A stretch of 64,000 nucleotides of DNA from Clostridiaceae bacterium (GTDB taxonomy: Bacteria; Bacillota; Clostridia; Oscillospirales; Acutalibacteraceae), in assembly GCA_016280595.1 (NCBI GenBank), contig JAEEHB010000002.1, positions 1 to 64,000 on the forward strand, read 5' to 3'. Of this stretch, positions 15,676-24,100 are shown in pieces; within the stretch, counting starts at the first letter, position 1, and every line of letters begins with the position of its first letter. A program made the position numbers and the translations under genes. The notes beneath the pieces are model-generated. The model had not been told where the DNA came from. It ran no database searches and saw only the letters and a program-made list of their open reading frames with translations.

Positions 15676-17145
15676 ATGGAAAAGTTTTTTGCTGACGGGC
15701 TGAAGTTTGTTGACGGCGAAGGCCGCGTGAGGATATTCAACGGCTTCAATATCGATGACAAACTTCTCAATCAATCCGCCTTCCGCTATGAACTCGATGA
15801 AGTCTTTTTCGGAAAGTACAGAGCGTACGGCCTCAACTTTATCCGCCTTGCCGTAACCTGGCAGAATCTCGAGCCGGAAATGGGCAAGTACAACGAAAGT
15901 TACCTTCAGTCAATTGACGGTATTTTCCGCCTGGCTGAGAAATACGGGGTTTACATCCTGCTCGATGTGCATCAGGATCTTTACTCCGGCTATGACGGCG
16001 ACGGCTGCGGCGACGGCGCTCCTATGTGGGCGGCGCTGACCGACGGCTACAAATCAAAGCAGCCCAAGTTTGTGTGGGCGGAGGGCTACATTTTCGGCAA
16101 ATGGGTTCACCGCGCGTTTGACCATTTCTGGAATAACGACCCCGTTGAAGGGGAGGGACTGCAGGACAGATACGCAAGGCTCTGGCAGATGCTTGCCGCA
16201 CGATACTGCGACAGCCCGGCTCTCTTCGGCTTCGACCTTATGAACGAGCCGTTTCCCGGCTCGGACTCAAAGAAGATGATGCTCCGCCTTGTGAGGAGTG
16301 TTACAGCCGCCGTTCTTTTCAGCAGAAAGATAAAACGCGGCAAAATTCTCAAATCACTCGTAAAGCGCGATACGGCGGGGCTCCTCAATTCCGTTGGCGG
16401 CAACGCAATCCGCGATATTATGAAACACGTCGATCCGCTTTCGGCGGAGTTTGACCTTAAAAAATATTCGCCGTTTCTCAACAAGATAACGGCGGCAATA
16501 AGAGAGATTACGAAAAACGGCTTTATTATGATTGAGCAGGCGTATCTGTGTAACGGCGGCGTAAAACAGTCCGTGCCGCCCATTACCGTAAACGGAGAGC
16601 GCGAGCCCCTGCAGTGCTTCGGACCTCACGCTTATGATATGACCGTTGACACGCCTCTTTACAAATACGCAAACGCCGACAGGGTAAAGGCTTTCTTTAC
16701 CGAGATGAGAAACACGCAGCTTCGCCTAAATGTGCCCGTTGTGGTGGGCGAATGGGGCGGATGCAGTGACAATAAAGACACTTCCTGGTTTCCGCACGCT
16801 TATGAACTTCTCGATTTCTTTGACACTCAGCACTGGGGTCAGGCTTACTGGGATTATCACGGCGACGACCTCGATTCTCCGCTGATGGGTATGCTCTGCA
16901 GGCCGCATCCTGTGGCTGTCGCGGGCAAGATTATTAATTACGGCTACGACAGGGAAAAAGATGTTTTCACCCTCTCTTTCACCTCGCAATCGCCCGGTGA
17001 GAGCATAATATATCTTCACAAGAATTTTGAAATATCCGCTCATACCGTTTATGAAATAATCGAGCGGTATGACAGCGGCGCGGCCCTTGTGCTGATTAAA
17101 ACGGGGTCAGGGGAACATACGGTTGAAGCAAGACTGTTTGACTGA
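15676..17145 (+). CDS. Glycoside hydrolase family 5, endoglycoceramidase-like
   Basis: RLAVTWQNLEPEMGKYNESYL, LLDVHQDLY, DLMNEPFPG, VVGEWGG; no signal peptide seen. Confidence 0.85.
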   Translation: MEKFFADGLKFVDGEGRVRIFNGFNIDDKLLNQSAFRYELDEVFFGKYRAYGLNFIRLAVTWQNLEPEMGKYNESYLQSIDGIFRLAEKYGVYILLDVHQDLYSGYDGDGCGDGAPMWAALTDGYKSKQPKFVWAEGYIFGKWVHRAFDHFWNNDPVEGEGLQDRYARLWQMLAARYCDSPALFGFDLMNEPFPGSDSKKMMLRLVRSVTAAVLFSRKIKRGKILKSLVKRDTAGLLNSVGGNAIRDIMKHVDPLSAEFDLKKYSPFLNKITAAIREITKNGFIMIEQAYLCNGGVKQSVPPITVNGEREPLQCFGPHAYDMTVDTPLYKYANADRVKAFFTEMRNTQLRLNVPVVVGEWGGCSDNKDTSWFPHAYELLDFFDTQHWGQAYWDYHGDDLDSPLMGMLCRPHPVAVAGKIINYGYDREKDVFTLSFTSQSPGESIIYLHKNFEISAHTVYEIIERYDSGAALVLIKTGSGEHTVEARLFD

Positions 17146-17159
17146 CGGAGGATTTGCGA

Positions 17160-19352
17160 ATGAATTATATCAAAACAGGCATTGAAAAAGTGAAAGAGGT
17201 CAAGACGTACTGGAAGAAGCCTTCCGAGGGCAACTATATGTCCTTCAGGGAGATTTTCGCTTATTCCGTAGGCGGCTTCGGCGCTTATTCCATATTCACT
17301 ATGGCGCAGGCGCTCCTGCTTTCGACCACCAATGTCATCATAGGCAATACTATCGGTATTCAGCCGATGCATATGTATGTGATGTATCTGATTTCGGTCA
17401 TCACAAACATTCCGCTGACTATGGTCAGGGCAAATATGGTGGATAACGTCAAATACAAAGAGGGCAAATACCGCCCGTATCTGCTCAGGATGGGCATACC
17501 CACCGTGGCGATATCAATGCTCTTTGTGTTTACGCCCTATACGAGAGTGCCCTACCTTGTGCGCTGCGTGCTGATTTTCGTTTACAACTTCGGCCTTCAG
17601 TTTTTCTATAACTTCTTCTATGATGCTTACGAAAACCTGATTCACGTGCTTTCACCCAACTCTCAGGAGCGCACCAACGTGACCGCAATCAAGAGTATGA
17701 TTTATTCGCTCTCGCCCACGGTCACCAATTTCATCACCCCGCTCATCGCCTCCAAGGTTGCCGACGGCAATATGTATGACCTCAGGGTTTACCGCTGGCT
17801 CTATCCCTTTATCGCCGTAATCGGCGTTGCGATGATAGTGCTTGTTTATTCAAGGACGGAGGAAAAAATCGTCATCGCGCGCACCCACAAGATGAAGATT
17901 AAATTCACCGACGCTTTAAGGGAAGTTGCCAAGAACAAATACTTCTGGATTATTTCCCTCGCGGGCTGGCTCGGTTTCCTTGAAACCTGCACCTATGTCA
18001 TCTTGCAGTGGCTTTACAATTACGCCCACCTGTGCACCCCCGAGCAGTACGCGTTCATCACTCTTATACGCGGCACTGCATACACCTGGGGTATGGTGCT
18101 CGCCCCGTTTGCAATAAAACGCTGGGGCAAGAAAAAGGTGCTGATTGTAACCAACCTTTTCAATATCGCCTTCCTCGCGCTCGTCTATCCGCTTATGGGC
18201 TCAATCTGGACGGTGCTTATCTGTATGTATATGAACTCTGTTGCGGATTCGTTCATCCTTGTGCTTAACCCGGCTATACAGGCGGATATAAGGGATTATC
18301 AGCAGTATAAGAGCGGCGAAAGAATTGACGGTATGTTCGGCGCTGTTGCAATGATAGGCTCGTTTGTCACTATGGCAACAAGTTCAGTGCTTCCCGCTGT
18401 CTACGAAAAATACGGCATCTATTCGGGCAACGGATACGAGAATATGTATGATGTTCTCTATAATCCCGATATTCTTTACAAACTCGTCGGTGTGCTTGTA
18501 ATCCTTTCTGCGGTCGGCGCTGCGCTAAATGTTATACCGTACTTCTTCTATGACCTGACCGAAACCAAGCAGAAGGCGATTATCCGCATTCTCAAAATCA
18601 GAGCGATGTTTGAGGATTACGGCAACGGCGTGCTCACCGATGACGATATGAAGAGCACTATGGAACTTATCCGCTCCTCAAAAGACAGGGCGGAAAACTC
18701 GCAGATTATCGACATAAAAGCCCTTAAAGCACATGGCGCCACGAAGCAGGAACTCAAGCAGGCGAGAGCCGACAACGAAGAATATGAAATGTCCGTCGCG
18801 GTTGTTGAAGAGCTTATGCGTTTCACCACTCCCGAAGGCCTTGCAAGGCTTGAATGGGCAAAGAAAATCGCCGCGGGCGGCATAGAGAATATCGCATCTC
18901 TTTCATATGACGATGTGACCGCCGCGAAAGCCCTTCCCTCGGGAAATCACCGCGAGAGAGCAATCAGAAAAGAAACGGTTGCCGACGCAAAACTCGGTAT
19001 GCGCTCAAAGAAGGCGTGCCTCAAGTTTTACCCGGACGGCATAAAGGACTTTGATATTCAGCACCTTCACGACCTTGAAAAAGAAGAAAACGAGGTTGAG
19101 GAAAAGAAGGCGATGCTGTTAAAGCAGAAAGCGGATGCTAAGGAAATAGAAGCCCTTACCGAAAGGCTCAGAGCCCTTCACGCCGAAATCAAGGCGCGGA
19201 CAGAGGAGTATCAGCATTTCGCCGCCGCCACCATGGTTTATACCGAGGCGAAGAAATACATCACCCAGGCGGAAAACTACGCAAGATTCGGCGAACTCGA
19301 TTCAAAATACACCGCAAGCCTTGCGGACAGCGACAGCGAAGAAGCGGAATAA
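17160..19352 (+). CDS. MFS/GPH-type sugar transporter with about 240-aa cytoplasmic C-terminal extension
   Basis: 12-TM-like N-terminal part; long charged coiled-coil tail; ATG at 17160 after ggagg. Confidence 0.82.
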   Translation: MNYIKTGIEKVKEVKTYWKKPSEGNYMSFREIFAYSVGGFGAYSIFTMAQALLLSTTNVIIGNTIGIQPMHMYVMYLISVITNIPLTMVRANMVDNVKYKEGKYRPYLLRMGIPTVAISMLFVFTPYTRVPYLVRCVLIFVYNFGLQFFYNFFYDAYENLIHVLSPNSQERTNVTAIKSMIYSLSPTVTNFITPLIASKVADGNMYDLRVYRWLYPFIAVIGVAMIVLVYSRTEEKIVIARTHKMKIKFTDALREVAKNKYFWIISLAGWLGFLETCTYVILQWLYNYAHLCTPEQYAFITLIRGTAYTWGMVLAPFAIKRWGKKKVLIVTNLFNIAFLALVYPLMGSIWTVLICMYMNSVADSFILVLNPAIQADIRDYQQYKSGERIDGMFGAVAMIGSFVTMATSSVLPAVYEKYGIYSGNGYENMYDVLYNPDILYKLVGVLVILSAVGAALNVIPYFFYDLTETKQKAIIRILKIRAMFEDYGNGVLTDDDMKSTMELIRSSKDRAENSQIIDIKALKAHGATKQELKQARADNEEYEMSVAVVEELMRFTTPEGLARLEWAKKIAAGGIENIASLSYDDVTAAKALPSGNHRERAIRKETVADAKLGMRSKKACLKFYPDGIKDFDIQHLHDLEKEENEVEEKKAMLLKQKADAKEIEALTERLRALHAEIKARTEEYQHFAAATMVYTEAKKYITQAENYARFGELDSKYTASLADSDSEEAE

Positions 19353-19369: not shown

Positions 19370-19406
19370 CGGCAGGCAGTCTTTCGACTTGCCTGCCGTT
19401 TAATTT
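19370..19406. terminator. Bidirectional Rho-independent terminator
   Basis: cggcaggca...tgcctgccg stem, A-tract on left and T-rich on right, between convergent genes. Confidence 0.82.
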
Positions 19407-19411
19407 TATGC

Positions 19412-21655
19412 TCAGTCTTTGAAATACTGGGGCAGATACTGTTTGTGAGCCTGCTTCATTTCTTCAAAGCAGTTTGAAGCCGCCTCCCAGTCGCCTACAA
19501 GGGGATGAATCAGCAGAGCGTTGAGCGCCGCCTCCTCATCGCCGTCTCTGCCGGCTTTCACGGTGTAGTTTTCATATTCTTTTACCACCTGCATAAGGCC
19601 GATGATATGGTGATTGTTTATCTCGCCTACGGGCAGGGGCTTCGCGCCGTGTTTGCCTATCCTCGCGGCTACTTCAATCACGTCGTCGGGCTTGAGGAAG
19701 GGGAGAGTATCTCCGTTTTTGATGTTGACCACCTGAATGTCGTTTATGTCATTGGCAATCGCACTTATGAGGTTAACCGCGACGAGCGAATACTTGTGAC
19801 CGCCTCTCTGGTCGAGCAGTGCGGGTTTTACATAGAGCCCTTCGTCGCTGTACATTTCAAGCAGTTCTTCCTCTATCTCCATGCACACCTGCGCTCTGCT
19901 TTTTTCGCCTTCAAGCAGGTGCTTGAGTTTCGCGTTTCTGCAGTAATAATACTGCAGGTAGGAGGAGGGCAGGGCGTGAATGGCGGCGAGAGTTTCGAGC
20001 GAGAAGCCGTCATCCTTTATGTTTGCCATAACTTTGGGCGAAAAGCCCTTCGCGAGCAGTTCGTCAATCAGTTCCTTACCGCCCGAGCGCACGCTCGTGA
20101 GCCAGCTTAAGTGATTGAGGCCTACATAGGTGTACTGCATATCCTCGCCCACGATTTCCTTTGTGTCGTCAATCATATCTATCGGCACATTGCAAAGACC
20201 TATGCACTTGACGTTTGTGTTGTTGAGCACAAACTCGGTGATGATGCCGGAGGGATTGGTGAAGTTAATCAGCCAGGCGTCGGGGCAGATTGCCTCTATC
20301 CTGTCGCAAATATTCTTGATAACGGGTATCGTTCTCTGCGCTTTGAAAAAGCCGCCTATGCCCGTTGTCTCCTGACCGATGAGGTTGTATTTGAGCGGGA
20401 TGGTTTCGTCAAGATGTCTCGCAGGCAGTTTGCCCACTCTAATCTGAGTTACCACGAAGTCCGCGCCCTGTAGCGCCTCGTCAAGGTTATCCGTCAGCAG
20501 AGTTTCACAGTCAACGCCCGCCGCCTTGAGCATACGGATGCACAGACCGCCTACAATATTCCTCTTTCTCTCGTCGATATCCATAAAGGATATTTTCCTG
20601 AGCCTGAGTTTATCCTGCGCTTTTAGGAAACCGTCGATAAGTTCGGGGCAGTAGGTGCTGCCCGAGCCGATAACCGCAACGGTAATGTCTTTGGGCGCGT
20701 TCGCCTTTTCTTCATCGGTGGCATATTCCTGCATAATCCAGTTTATGCAGCCCGTAACGGGAGCCTGAGTTAGTTTTTTGAATTTAAGTTTCTTGGACGC
20801 GTACTGCTCCGCTCTCTCGGTGAGTTCTCTGATATAGGTGGGCGAGCCGACTTTTACATTGATTGAGCCGGAGAGGATAACCTCAACTTCGTCGCCGTCA
20901 AAATTCATCTGGTTTACGAGCGAGGCGATTGACTTCGCGCCCCTGTCCGCCATCTTGATGCAGTACTGCCTCGCGTGAGCGTCTCCCTGCTCAACGGCGT
21001 CAAAGAAGAAACCTACAAAGTTGCGCACGTGCTCGGGCTCGTCTGGGTTTTCGATTTTGCCGAGCAGTTCAAGAAATTCCTCTCTGTTTTTGATGCCGTA
21101 GCATTCCTTGACCATATCGGTTATCGGGCTCTCCTCTATGCCGAGGAAAAGCTGTCTGTAAGCGATTTCGTATGCTTTAATCGCTATTGTCTGGCCGCCG
21201 GAAAGGTCGCCCGAGAAAACGCCGAGCCCCATTAACTGAAGCATACCGCCCTTTGAATCTATGCCGTTACAGCAGACGCCCGTGCCGCAGTTATAGCCTA
21301 CCGCCGCGCCTGTGTCGGAGCCCGCTTTGATAATGAGGAAACCGTCATTGTAAATTTCAAAATTGTCAAGGCCTTTTTCCCTGAGCAGGGCGCACATTTT
21401 ATCGTGCTGCCATTTGTGGTCAATGCCTGCAAGTCCCATGAGCGAAAACGAAATATCGCCGCTGTCAAGGCCGTTTTGCCTGCAGAGGGTGTTGATGCCT
21501 TCCATTATGATGTCGGAGGCCTCGTCAAAGCCGCCGTCAAGATTTTCGTGATTGCTGCCCTTGCCTTCATAGAGGTCGAGCAGTTTTTTTGTGCTGTCAA
21601 AAAGGGCAAAAGCGGTTTTTGTGCCGCCGCCGTCAACTCCGATATAGAATTTCAT
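19412..21655 (-). CDS. Fusion protein: BadF/BadG/BcrA-type (GlcNAc kinase-like) ATPase plus GH4 NAD-dependent 6-phospho-glycosidase
   Basis: N-part: GVDGGGTKTAFALFD, LAGIDHKW, YNCGTGVCCNGID. C-part (from about 20700 downwards): ITVAVIGSGSTYCPELIDG, QIRVGKLPARHLDETIPLKYNLIGQETTGIGGFFKAQRT, INFTNPSGI, IGLCNVP, GLNHLSW. One uninterrupted 747-aa ORF. Confidence 0.9.
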   Translation of the reverse strand: MKFYIGVDGGGTKTAFALFDSTKKLLDLYEGKGSNHENLDGGFDEASDIIMEGINTLCRQNGLDSGDISFSLMGLAGIDHKWQHDKMCALLREKGLDNFEIYNDGFLIIKAGSDTGAAVGYNCGTGVCCNGIDSKGGMLQLMGLGVFSGDLSGGQTIAIKAYEIAYRQLFLGIEESPITDMVKECYGIKNREEFLELLGKIENPDEPEHVRNFVGFFFDAVEQGDAHARQYCIKMADRGAKSIASLVNQMNFDGDEVEVILSGSINVKVGSPTYIRELTERAEQYASKKLKFKKLTQAPVTGCINWIMQEYATDEEKANAPKDITVAVIGSGSTYCPELIDGFLKAQDKLRLRKISFMDIDERKRNIVGGLCIRMLKAAGVDCETLLTDNLDEALQGADFVVTQIRVGKLPARHLDETIPLKYNLIGQETTGIGGFFKAQRTIPVIKNICDRIEAICPDAWLINFTNPSGIITEFVLNNTNVKCIGLCNVPIDMIDDTKEIVGEDMQYTYVGLNHLSWLTSVRSGGKELIDELLAKGFSPKVMANIKDDGFSLETLAAIHALPSSYLQYYYCRNAKLKHLLEGEKSRAQVCMEIEEELLEMYSDEGLYVKPALLDQRGGHKYSLVAVNLISAIANDINDIQVVNIKNGDTLPFLKPDDVIEVAARIGKHGAKPLPVGEINNHHIIGLMQVVKEYENYTVKAGRDGDEEAALNALLIHPLVGDWEAASNCFEEMKQAHKQYLPQYFKD

Positions 21656-21673: not shown

Positions 21674-22939
21674 TCAGTCTTCTTCAAAAAAGTCGTTGCA
21701 CACTTCCTCAAGGCAGAATGTGCCGCGTCTGTAGGGCTCTCTGTCTATCCACATACCGCAGGTGAAATCGGGGAAAGGTACGGGAGCGGAGCCGATTGCG
21801 ACGGACTGCTCCGAAAGCGCTGTGACAGCCATCCAGGTGGCGGCGTCATACACATCAATCGGGGGCTTTGCCTCAAGCCTCAGGCTTTCGACAAAAGCGC
21901 TGAGCACAAGGTAGTCCATACCGCCGTGTCCGCCGGCGTGTATGCCCTCTTCGGAATACTTTTTCCAGAGCGGATGCTCGTATTTATCGCGGTAGCCGTC
22001 CTCAACGAATTTTTCCCACACGTGAGTCCAGTGGGTATTATCTTCGTGAGATACGCCTTCAAGGTAAATCGTGCCGCCGTCTTCCATATATATGCCCTTT
22101 GTGCCCTGAATTCTGTAGGCTCTCGAATAGGGGCGGGGCAGGCAGCAGTCGTGAGTGAGCACAACTGTTTCGCCGTTTGCGCATTTAATCATTGTGGTGA
22201 CTATATCACCCTGATTGAAATGATAGTCCGCAAGGTCGTACGCTTCGCCTTTGTTGTCATTTATCCAGCCGTTGAGACCTCTTGACTTGGTAGCCATAGA
22301 TACAAGGGAGATAAATCTGTTGCCCCTGTTTATGCCGAGCACCTTCGCGATGGGGCCGAGCTGATGGGTGGGGTAAAGCTCGCCGTTGCGGTGCTGGAAA
22401 TTGTAAAGCCTGCCGTGCCTGTCTTCCCTGCCGAGCGAGATTTCTTCGCGCAGGTCGTGCTGATAGCCGCCCTGCAGGTGAATAAGTTCACCGAATATGC
22501 CCTGCTTTACCATATTAAAGAGAGCCATTTCGTTGCGGTCATAGCAGCAGTTTTCGAGCAGCATACAGAATTTGCCTGTCTCTTCGCTCGCTCTTACCAT
22601 CTGCCAGCATTCCTCAACGCTCGCGCTGCCGCCCACTTCGAGGGCAACGTGCTTGCCCGCTCTCATGGAATCGGTGGCGATACGCGCGTGGGTAATCCAG
22701 GTGGTGCAGCACATAACCGCGTCTATATCATCCCTTGCAAGGAGTTCTTTATAGTTGAGATATACATCGGGAGCAGTCCCGGTTTTTTCGAGCACTATCT
22801 TTTGGCCTTCAAGGGCCCTGTCTTCATATTTATCGCATACGGCGGGCACAATAACTCCTTCGCAGTTGAGCAGTTCGCCGAGGTTTCCTCTGCCTCTGCC
22901 GCCGAGTCCTATAACGCCTATTCTTACTTTATCTTTCAT
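21674..22939 (-). CDS. Gfo/Idh/MocA-fold NAD-dependent enzyme, GH109 (alpha-N-acetylgalactosaminidase)-like
   Basis: RIGVIGLGGRGRGNL; ENCCYDRNEMALFNMVKQGIFGELIHLQGGYQHDLR; RNGELYPTHQLGPIAKVLGINRGNR; HAGGHGGMDYLVL; pattern recognised from GH109 proteins. Confidence 0.85.
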   Translation of the reverse strand: MKDKVRIGVIGLGGRGRGNLGELLNCEGVIVPAVCDKYEDRALEGQKIVLEKTGTAPDVYLNYKELLARDDIDAVMCCTTWITHARIATDSMRAGKHVALEVGGSASVEECWQMVRASEETGKFCMLLENCCYDRNEMALFNMVKQGIFGELIHLQGGYQHDLREEISLGREDRHGRLYNFQHRNGELYPTHQLGPIAKVLGINRGNRFISLVSMATKSRGLNGWINDNKGEAYDLADYHFNQGDIVTTMIKCANGETVVLTHDCCLPRPYSRAYRIQGTKGIYMEDGGTIYLEGVSHEDNTHWTHVWEKFVEDGYRDKYEHPLWKKYSEEGIHAGGHGGMDYLVLSAFVESLRLEAKPPIDVYDAATWMAVTALSEQSVAIGSAPVPFPDFTCGMWIDREPYRRGTFCLEEVCNDFFEED

Positions 22940-22947
22940 ATAAAAAC

Positions 22948-22999
22948 CCCCTTGATATAATATCTATCTGTATTATATCAAAGGGGACTTAAAAATCAA
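22948..22999 (-). promoter_or_regulatory. Promoter TTGATT-16-TATAAT overlapped by a 15-bp inverted repeat (operator-like)
   Basis: -35 at 22994-22999, -10 at 22972-22977; IR arms 22948-22962 / 22971-22986 with one bulged A. Confidence 0.6.
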
Positions 23000-23542: not shown

Positions 23543-24100
23543 TCAGCAGCAGGGAATAATGTCACCGCCGAAACATTCGCAGCAGCAGTCGGCACAGAGC
23601 AGGCCCGTGATTACGTCGCAGGCGGAGCAGCCGCTGTCGCCGCGCGAAGATTTGCGCGAAGTCCTGTATCCGCCGCTTCTGGCGTTATTCATTCTGTTAT
23701 AAGCGTCTTTGTATTCTCTGTTTGACGGGTCCATTGAGTTGGCTCTCGCGTAATGGTTTACCGCCTCTTCGAGCCAGCCCTTTCTCTCATAAATCATACC
23801 GCGCAGGTAATACCACTCGGCGTTTCTTGCATTTACGGGCACGCCGTCAAGCAACAGTTGCGCGTCCTCAAGCCTGCCGGCTTTGATTTTTTCGTAAATA
23901 TCTGAAAAATCGGTGCCGACAAACGAGTATCCGCCGCCGCGCGAGTTCAGAATTATCTGATCGTATGCGTCGTTGAGTTCGGAGAGCTTGTCCTCCCTGC
24001 CGTTTTCACGGTATTCTCTTGCTTTTCTTTTGTATGCCTCGTCGATTATATCGCCTGAGGCTCCGCGGGGTACTCCCAGCACTGCATAAGGATCAATCAT
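23543..24100 (-). CDS. J-domain-like protein with TPR-like segment and Cys-rich C-terminus
   Basis: MIDPYAVLGVPRGASGDIIDEAYKRKAREY...ELNDAYDQI; CSACDVITGLLCADCCCECFGGDIIPCC tail. Confidence 0.75.
   Translation of the reverse strand: MIDPYAVLGVPRGASGDIIDEAYKRKAREYRENGREDKLSELNDAYDQIILNSRGGGYSFVGTDFSDIYEKIKAGRLEDAQLLLDGVPVNARNAEWYYLRGMIYERKGWLEEAVNHYARANSMDPSNREYKDAYNRMNNARSGGYRTSRKSSRGDSGCSACDVITGLLCADCCCECFGGDIIPCC

Follow-up and report, generated by a model that had tools for sequence, protein, structure and literature searches.

Fusion of a BadF-type sugar kinase to a GH4 glycosidase and its possible part in a PTS-independent route through 6-phospho-glycosides

A gene on the minus strand of the window (the whole stretch of 64,000 nucleotides that was analysed) encodes a single protein in which an N-terminal BadF/NAGK/MurK-type sugar kinase is joined to a GH4 glycosidase. 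A rather likely reading is that a glycoside taken up by the cell receives a phosphate from the kinase and is then cut by GH4, independently of a PTS. The starting substrate would be an unphosphorylated beta-glycoside or disaccharide taken up by the cell. The kinase, having the BadF/NAGK fold and presumably accepting glycosides, would most likely phosphorylate O6 of the non-reducing sugar. The GH4 domain, which would require that phosphate, would then cut the 6-phospho-glycoside by NAD+/metal-dependent oxidation-elimination to give a sugar-6-phosphate and an aglycone or second sugar. The kinase would in this way stand in for the PTS missing from the genus. We infer the order of the two reactions, kinase then GH4, by elimination. 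The features of the gene are as follows.

19412..21655, minus strand: fused kinase-GH4 gene, 747 aa plus stop, ATG start
20726..21655, minus strand: BadF/NAGK/MurK-type sugar kinase domain, N-terminal, residues 1-310 (Pfam BcrAD_BadFG and AlphaFold/Foldseek)
21344..21346, minus strand: codon of Asp104, putative catalytic base by homology to TfMurK D95
20693..20725, minus strand: acidic linker, residues 311-321 (junction DNA comparison; pLDDT ~56)
19415..20692, minus strand: GH4 domain, probable 6-phospho-beta-glucosidase (CNVP) group, residues 322-747
20192..20194, minus strand: codon of Cys488, GH4 metal ligand (GLCNVP), invariant in alignment
20111..20113, minus strand: codon of His515, GH4 metal ligand (GLNH), invariant in alignment

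The frame contains no internal stops. An earlier note on this DNA had described a single unbroken kinase-GH4 polypeptide and this was found to be so, the correct strand being minus. Its domain identities were recovered in Pfam: BcrAD_BadFG (PF01869) at residues 5-266, with 57.6 bits for a cut-off of 31.5, Glyco_hydro_4 (PF02056) at 326-502 with 180.8 bits and Glyco_hydro_4C (PF11975) at 510-720 with 165.8 bits, the latter two above their gathering scores. The motifs DGGGTKT, GSGSTYCPEL, GLCNVP and GLNH were all present. Loss of catalytic residues was looked for in each half and both halves were intact. D8, G10, K13, D104, G124 and G126 of the kinase, which cover the phosphate-1 motif DGGGTKT, the GTG motif and the catalytic Asp, were invariant among 69 aligned kinases, as were G330, G332, C488, N489 and H515 (NAD motif, metal Cys and His) in the GH4 alignment.

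The GH4 half was nearest to the 6-phospho-beta-glucosidases 5c3m, 1s6y and 1up6, at 249-339 bits (above 330 for 5c3m and 1s6y), and gave 58 bits with the non-phospho enzyme AglA (1obb). BglT of Thermotoga (1up6) and the Geobacillus enzymes 5c3m and 1s6y share with it the GH4 domain, CNVP, the metal Cys and His and the NAD-binding motif but have no attached kinase domain. CNVP is a signature of the GH4 6-phospho-beta-glucosidase subgroup, and the nearest relatives and GLCNVP together suggest that the GH4 half belongs to it. The GH4 enzymes BglT and GlvA need 6-phospho substrates and cleave them by oxidation-elimination (PMC10628242).

Neither PTS_EIIC (PF02378) nor the N-domain of PTS enzyme I (PF05524) was found in any of the 45 genus genomes searched, 15 of which had a completeness of 90% or more and a contamination of 5% or less. 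The same profile searches were positive in 7 of 14 control genomes. Where enzyme I is absent no PTS can supply 6-phospho-glycosides. If the GH4 domain needs a 6-phosphate as BglT and GlvA do, then the kinase would be its natural supplier, an argument by elimination. The earlier proposal of a self-contained, PTS-independent route is therefore sustained as far as the PTS is concerned, but ‘self-contained’ was too strong: the pair is unfused elsewhere, a GH109 gene usually lies upstream and an importer would still be needed. No importer conserved beside the kinase-GH4 genes was found at the genus loci.

The kinase half did not match ROK in Pfam, the match being to BcrAD_BadFG. ROK kinases scoring above curated cut-offs are encoded outside the fused locus in 40 of the 45 genus genomes, so the BadF-type kinase need not be the cell's glucokinase. 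When the AlphaFold model of the kinase half (pLDDT 94.7, pTM 0.90) was compared using Foldseek, the best match was MurK (8zo3, TM 0.80), and Sulfolobus hexokinase and human NAGK were also similar. The sequence match to MurK 8zo3 and to NAGK was weak, and the fused protein scored 37 bits with the NCBIfam NagK equivalog NF046058, for which the cut-off is 370. MurK of C. acetobutylicum (8zo3) and human NAGK (2ch5) share the fold (TM ~0.7-0.8) and the catalytic Asp with the fused kinase, but identity is ~20% and their GDEGSG and GGWG loops are replaced in the fused kinase and in most GH4-paired relatives. The fused kinase has the loop GDLSGG, unlike the GDEGS-type loop of canonical NAGK and MurK. 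The exact GDEGSG loop, present in MurK and several unpaired kinases, occurred in none of the paired kinases, most of which have Gln140 in common. An Asp at matching spacing touches the C1 hydroxyl in TfMurK (PMC10465942); going by alignment spacing, this residue appears to be kept as Asp150. The altered loop near C1 would fit acceptance of glycosides by the kinase but is not proof of it. In the kinase tree, 38 of the 39 sampled GH4-paired kinases and six scored unpaired ones clustered separately from MurK, NAGK and 14 other kinases, mostly from the same genus; the boundary had an SH-aLRT of 93 and long branches were present. This grouping is suggestive, not firm, evidence that the GH4-linked BadF kinases are a separate subfamily.

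The gene directly upstream of the fusion also encodes a glycosidase.

21674..22939, minus strand: GH109 NAD-dependent glycosidase, 421 aa, with GGHGG loop

This protein scored 232 bits with GH109_C (PF21252) and 322 bits with 2ixa, and contains the GGHGG loop, whose role in GH109 is taken from a title (Teze 2020) in the references of PMC10154618. The family was upstream in 56 of 81 loci of the group. Given this neighbour and the NAGK-like fold, an amino-sugar glycoside is a possible substrate. The same observations allow the kinase to be placed after hydrolysis, with GH4 or GH109 freeing a hexose or N-acetylhexosamine that the kinase would phosphorylate for catabolism, as NAGK and MurK do. The fold and nearest sequences are those of MurK and NAGK, GH109 is an N-acetylgalactosaminidase family, and NagA is encoded above curated cut-offs in 36 of the 45 genus genomes. 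However, the GH4 group is expected to need a 6-phosphate, for which a PTS-less cell offers no other obvious supplier, and the paired kinases are set apart from the canonical ones, so this order of events is considered unlikely.

The fusion itself was examined by scanning relatives, with one genome per species. Of the 80 loci retrieved, 74 encode kinase and GH4 separately, three hold a one-frame fusion and three are partial. The unbroken frame is found in L061 (Tb.RUG.222), L062/G004 (UBA1236) and L076/G007 (a reindeer MAG), with diverged linkers. Kinase and GH4 are together in all 74 scorable split loci, at most ~75 nt apart in 72 of them. The junction DNA of the split copies contains a stop, usually a purine-rich stretch, and then an ATG before KEINVAV. 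In the fused copies this stretch has given way to a linker of ~11-14 residues, acidic or polar in character; the stop codon of the kinase has disappeared, and with it the ribosome-binding site and start codon of GH4. In MAGs, such as the named relatives, assembly errors can occur, and two genes might be joined by an assembly or frameshift artefact. The fusion is present in four divergent, independent assemblies, its linker differs from one to the next, and the start codon and ribosome-binding site have been lost, so this explanation can be set aside almost completely. Apparent full-length fusions in genomes G292, G632, G875, G832 and G1025 and in f114 genomes proved to be two ORFs parted by a stop.

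The four fused copies form one clade in the GH4 tree, requiring a single state change (SH-aLRT 99). The fusion is a recent, local derivative of an adjacent gene pair, with one origin and four species of related gut bacteria. Among the fused copies dS is ~0.9-1.6; in this clade the kinase has a dN/dS of 0.05-0.18 and GH4 one of 0.03-0.04. Purifying selection acts on both halves. Decay of the kinase was considered and is ruled out by dN/dS and the invariant Asp104. Within the fused clade the protein sequence of the kinase half changes at ~2 to 4 times the rate of the GH4 half, and in split relatives the kinase is again the faster one. The sequence of the linker is unconserved among the fused copies. 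The earlier note had looked to structure prediction for the junction; the full-length model gave a poorly ordered linker (pLDDT ~56) and a pTM of 0.60, so the relative placement of the domains is not predicted. It is quite possible, if slightly short of probable, that the fusion was a neutral accident of stop-codon loss and that the pair matters while the fusion does not. The single origin in four species, the unconserved and disordered linker with the low pTM, and the many split pairs that already share a frame with little spacing are all in keeping with this. Set against it is the retention of the fused frame to a dS of ~1 with both halves under purifying selection. This reading concerns the fusion only and is compatible with phosphorylation followed by cleavage.

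Outside the genus, searches at order, class and phylum level and of flanking genes showed the kinase adjoining GH4 in ~12 Bacillota families, in both orders (kinase-GH4 and GH4-kinase) and always unfused. The pair lies alongside genes for a LacI regulator, a solute-binding protein and permeases in G875 and G1155, one permease-sized gene of G1155 being without a Pfam match. In G832 the genes are laid out in the same way and include one for a solute-binding protein, and the pair of G699 has an SBP_bac_1 protein immediately upstream. LacI, an ABC sugar importer, the kinase and GH4 were seen in one gene row in L300 (6428-13085) and L192 (2651-9415). Enzyme I was sought in 79 GH4-bearing genomes. 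Pairing occurred in 22 of 35 genomes without enzyme I and in 8 of 43 with it (Fisher p 1.4e-4), but an independent-pairs test of pairing against enzyme I absence, run on the GH4 tree, gave a non-significant median p of 1. The association of pairing with the absence of enzyme I is at clade level only. As the raw association was lost under independent pairs, PTS absence is not claimed as the driver of pairing. Pairing requires at least nine changes on the GH4 tree and has thus been gained or lost repeatedly.

In genome G632, which has enzyme I, the kinase, GH4 and MupG (6-phospho-N-acetylmuramidase) genes are adjacent (L204, 6621-10002). This kinase is the one paired kinase that groups with MurK and NAGK, and the pair may be a cell-wall recycling unit. 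Extended to the fused protein, such a role in recycling GlcNAc/MurNAc fragments would have the kinase phosphorylate an amino-sugar di- or monosaccharide and GH4 cleave the product. MurK is the best fold match, and GH3, beta-lactamase-fold and GNAT genes are neighbours of some further pairs. The G632 kinase is, however, outside the GH4-linked group, and no conserved cell-wall gene was found in the genus operon. The GH4 mechanism proceeds by oxidation at C3, the position blocked in MurNAc by the lactyl ether. Cell-wall recycling by the fused protein is quite improbable. For phosphorylation of an imported glycoside before cleavage there are the completeness of both domains, the conserved pairing, and the LacI and ABC sugar-import genes in operons of other families. 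Against it, MurK and NAGK, the closest characterised kinases, use free amino sugars as substrates, the Asp that touches the C1 hydroxyl appears to be kept, and enzyme I is present in eight of the paired genomes.

The logic of a kinase acting with a 6-phospho-glycosidase is already known from BglK of Klebsiella and its 6-phospho-beta-glucosidase, in which ATP-dependent phosphorylation of a beta-glucoside is likewise followed by a 6-phospho-glucosidase. BglK, a ROK kinase, is separate from the hydrolase, whereas the present kinase is of the BadF/NAGK type and fused. In ChbF-type PTS/GH4 operons for chitobiose or cellobiose, GH4 also cuts a 6-phosphorylated disaccharide, but there the phosphate comes from a PTS, which this genus does not have. 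BglK and GH4 have been used as a two-enzyme path in vitro (PMC10628242). What differs here is the kinase family, the widespread pairing in Bacillota and the one recent fusion. In the literature covered, which took in few subscription journals, papers sought on BadF together with GH4 or other glycoside hydrolases described neither a fusion nor a BadF-GH4 system. Within that incomplete coverage the architecture had no prior description, and the fusion and the GH4-linked kinase subfamily appear to be undescribed so far. A wider proposal, which we put forward tentatively and regard as rather doubtful, is that intact glycosides are the substrates of an undescribed BadF-type kinase subfamily which, through widespread coupling to GH4 in Bacillota, replaces the PTS by ABC import and ATP-driven phosphorylation; in one clade the two steps would have been fused into a bifunctional enzyme, with the intermediate handed from one active site to the other. 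GH4 enzymes of the 6-phospho-beta-glucosidase group have so far been explained via the PTS, and the use of phospho-glycosidases by gut bacteria that have no PTS would become understandable if a kinase subfamily is tied to GH4 there. For the many pairs that are not fused, the natural fusion serves as a Rosetta stone, and it offers a single molecule for assaying the full hypothesis.

Two non-coding features flank the genes described above.

22947..22999, minus strand: putative promoter TTGATT-16-TATAAT before GH109 (consensus scan only), overlapping a 16-bp inverted repeat
19370..19398, no strand assigned: hairpin with T-rich flanks on both strands, read directly from the sequence

The 16-bp inverted repeat at 22947-22986, which could be a terminator or an operator, overlaps a promoter-like site of the extended -10 type immediately ahead of the GH109 start; the repeat is recognisable in L061 and weaker in L062 and L076. 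The hairpin is likely a bidirectional terminator between convergent genes. The gene convergent with the fusion (17154-19352) encodes a 732-aa sugar:cation symporter of the GPH family, which continues for ~250 residues past the transporter domain at its C-terminus, and 15676-17145 encodes a GH5 protein with a GH5_C domain and a weak match to endoglycoceramidase. These two were rejected as partners of the fusion, the symporter family being found in just 3 of 81 loci. Other neighbours vary by clade, a xylose-isomerase-like TIM-barrel gene being present in six loci. Farther upstream, genes for a DUF5685 protein, a DnaJ/TPR protein and an unassigned 177-aa protein are kept by only some members of the group and have the look of chromosomal context. 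The second of these (23543-24100) encodes a small protein with DnaJ and TPR domains and a Cys-rich tail, and its gene order with the DUF5685 and 177-aa proteins is kept in ~30 relatives.
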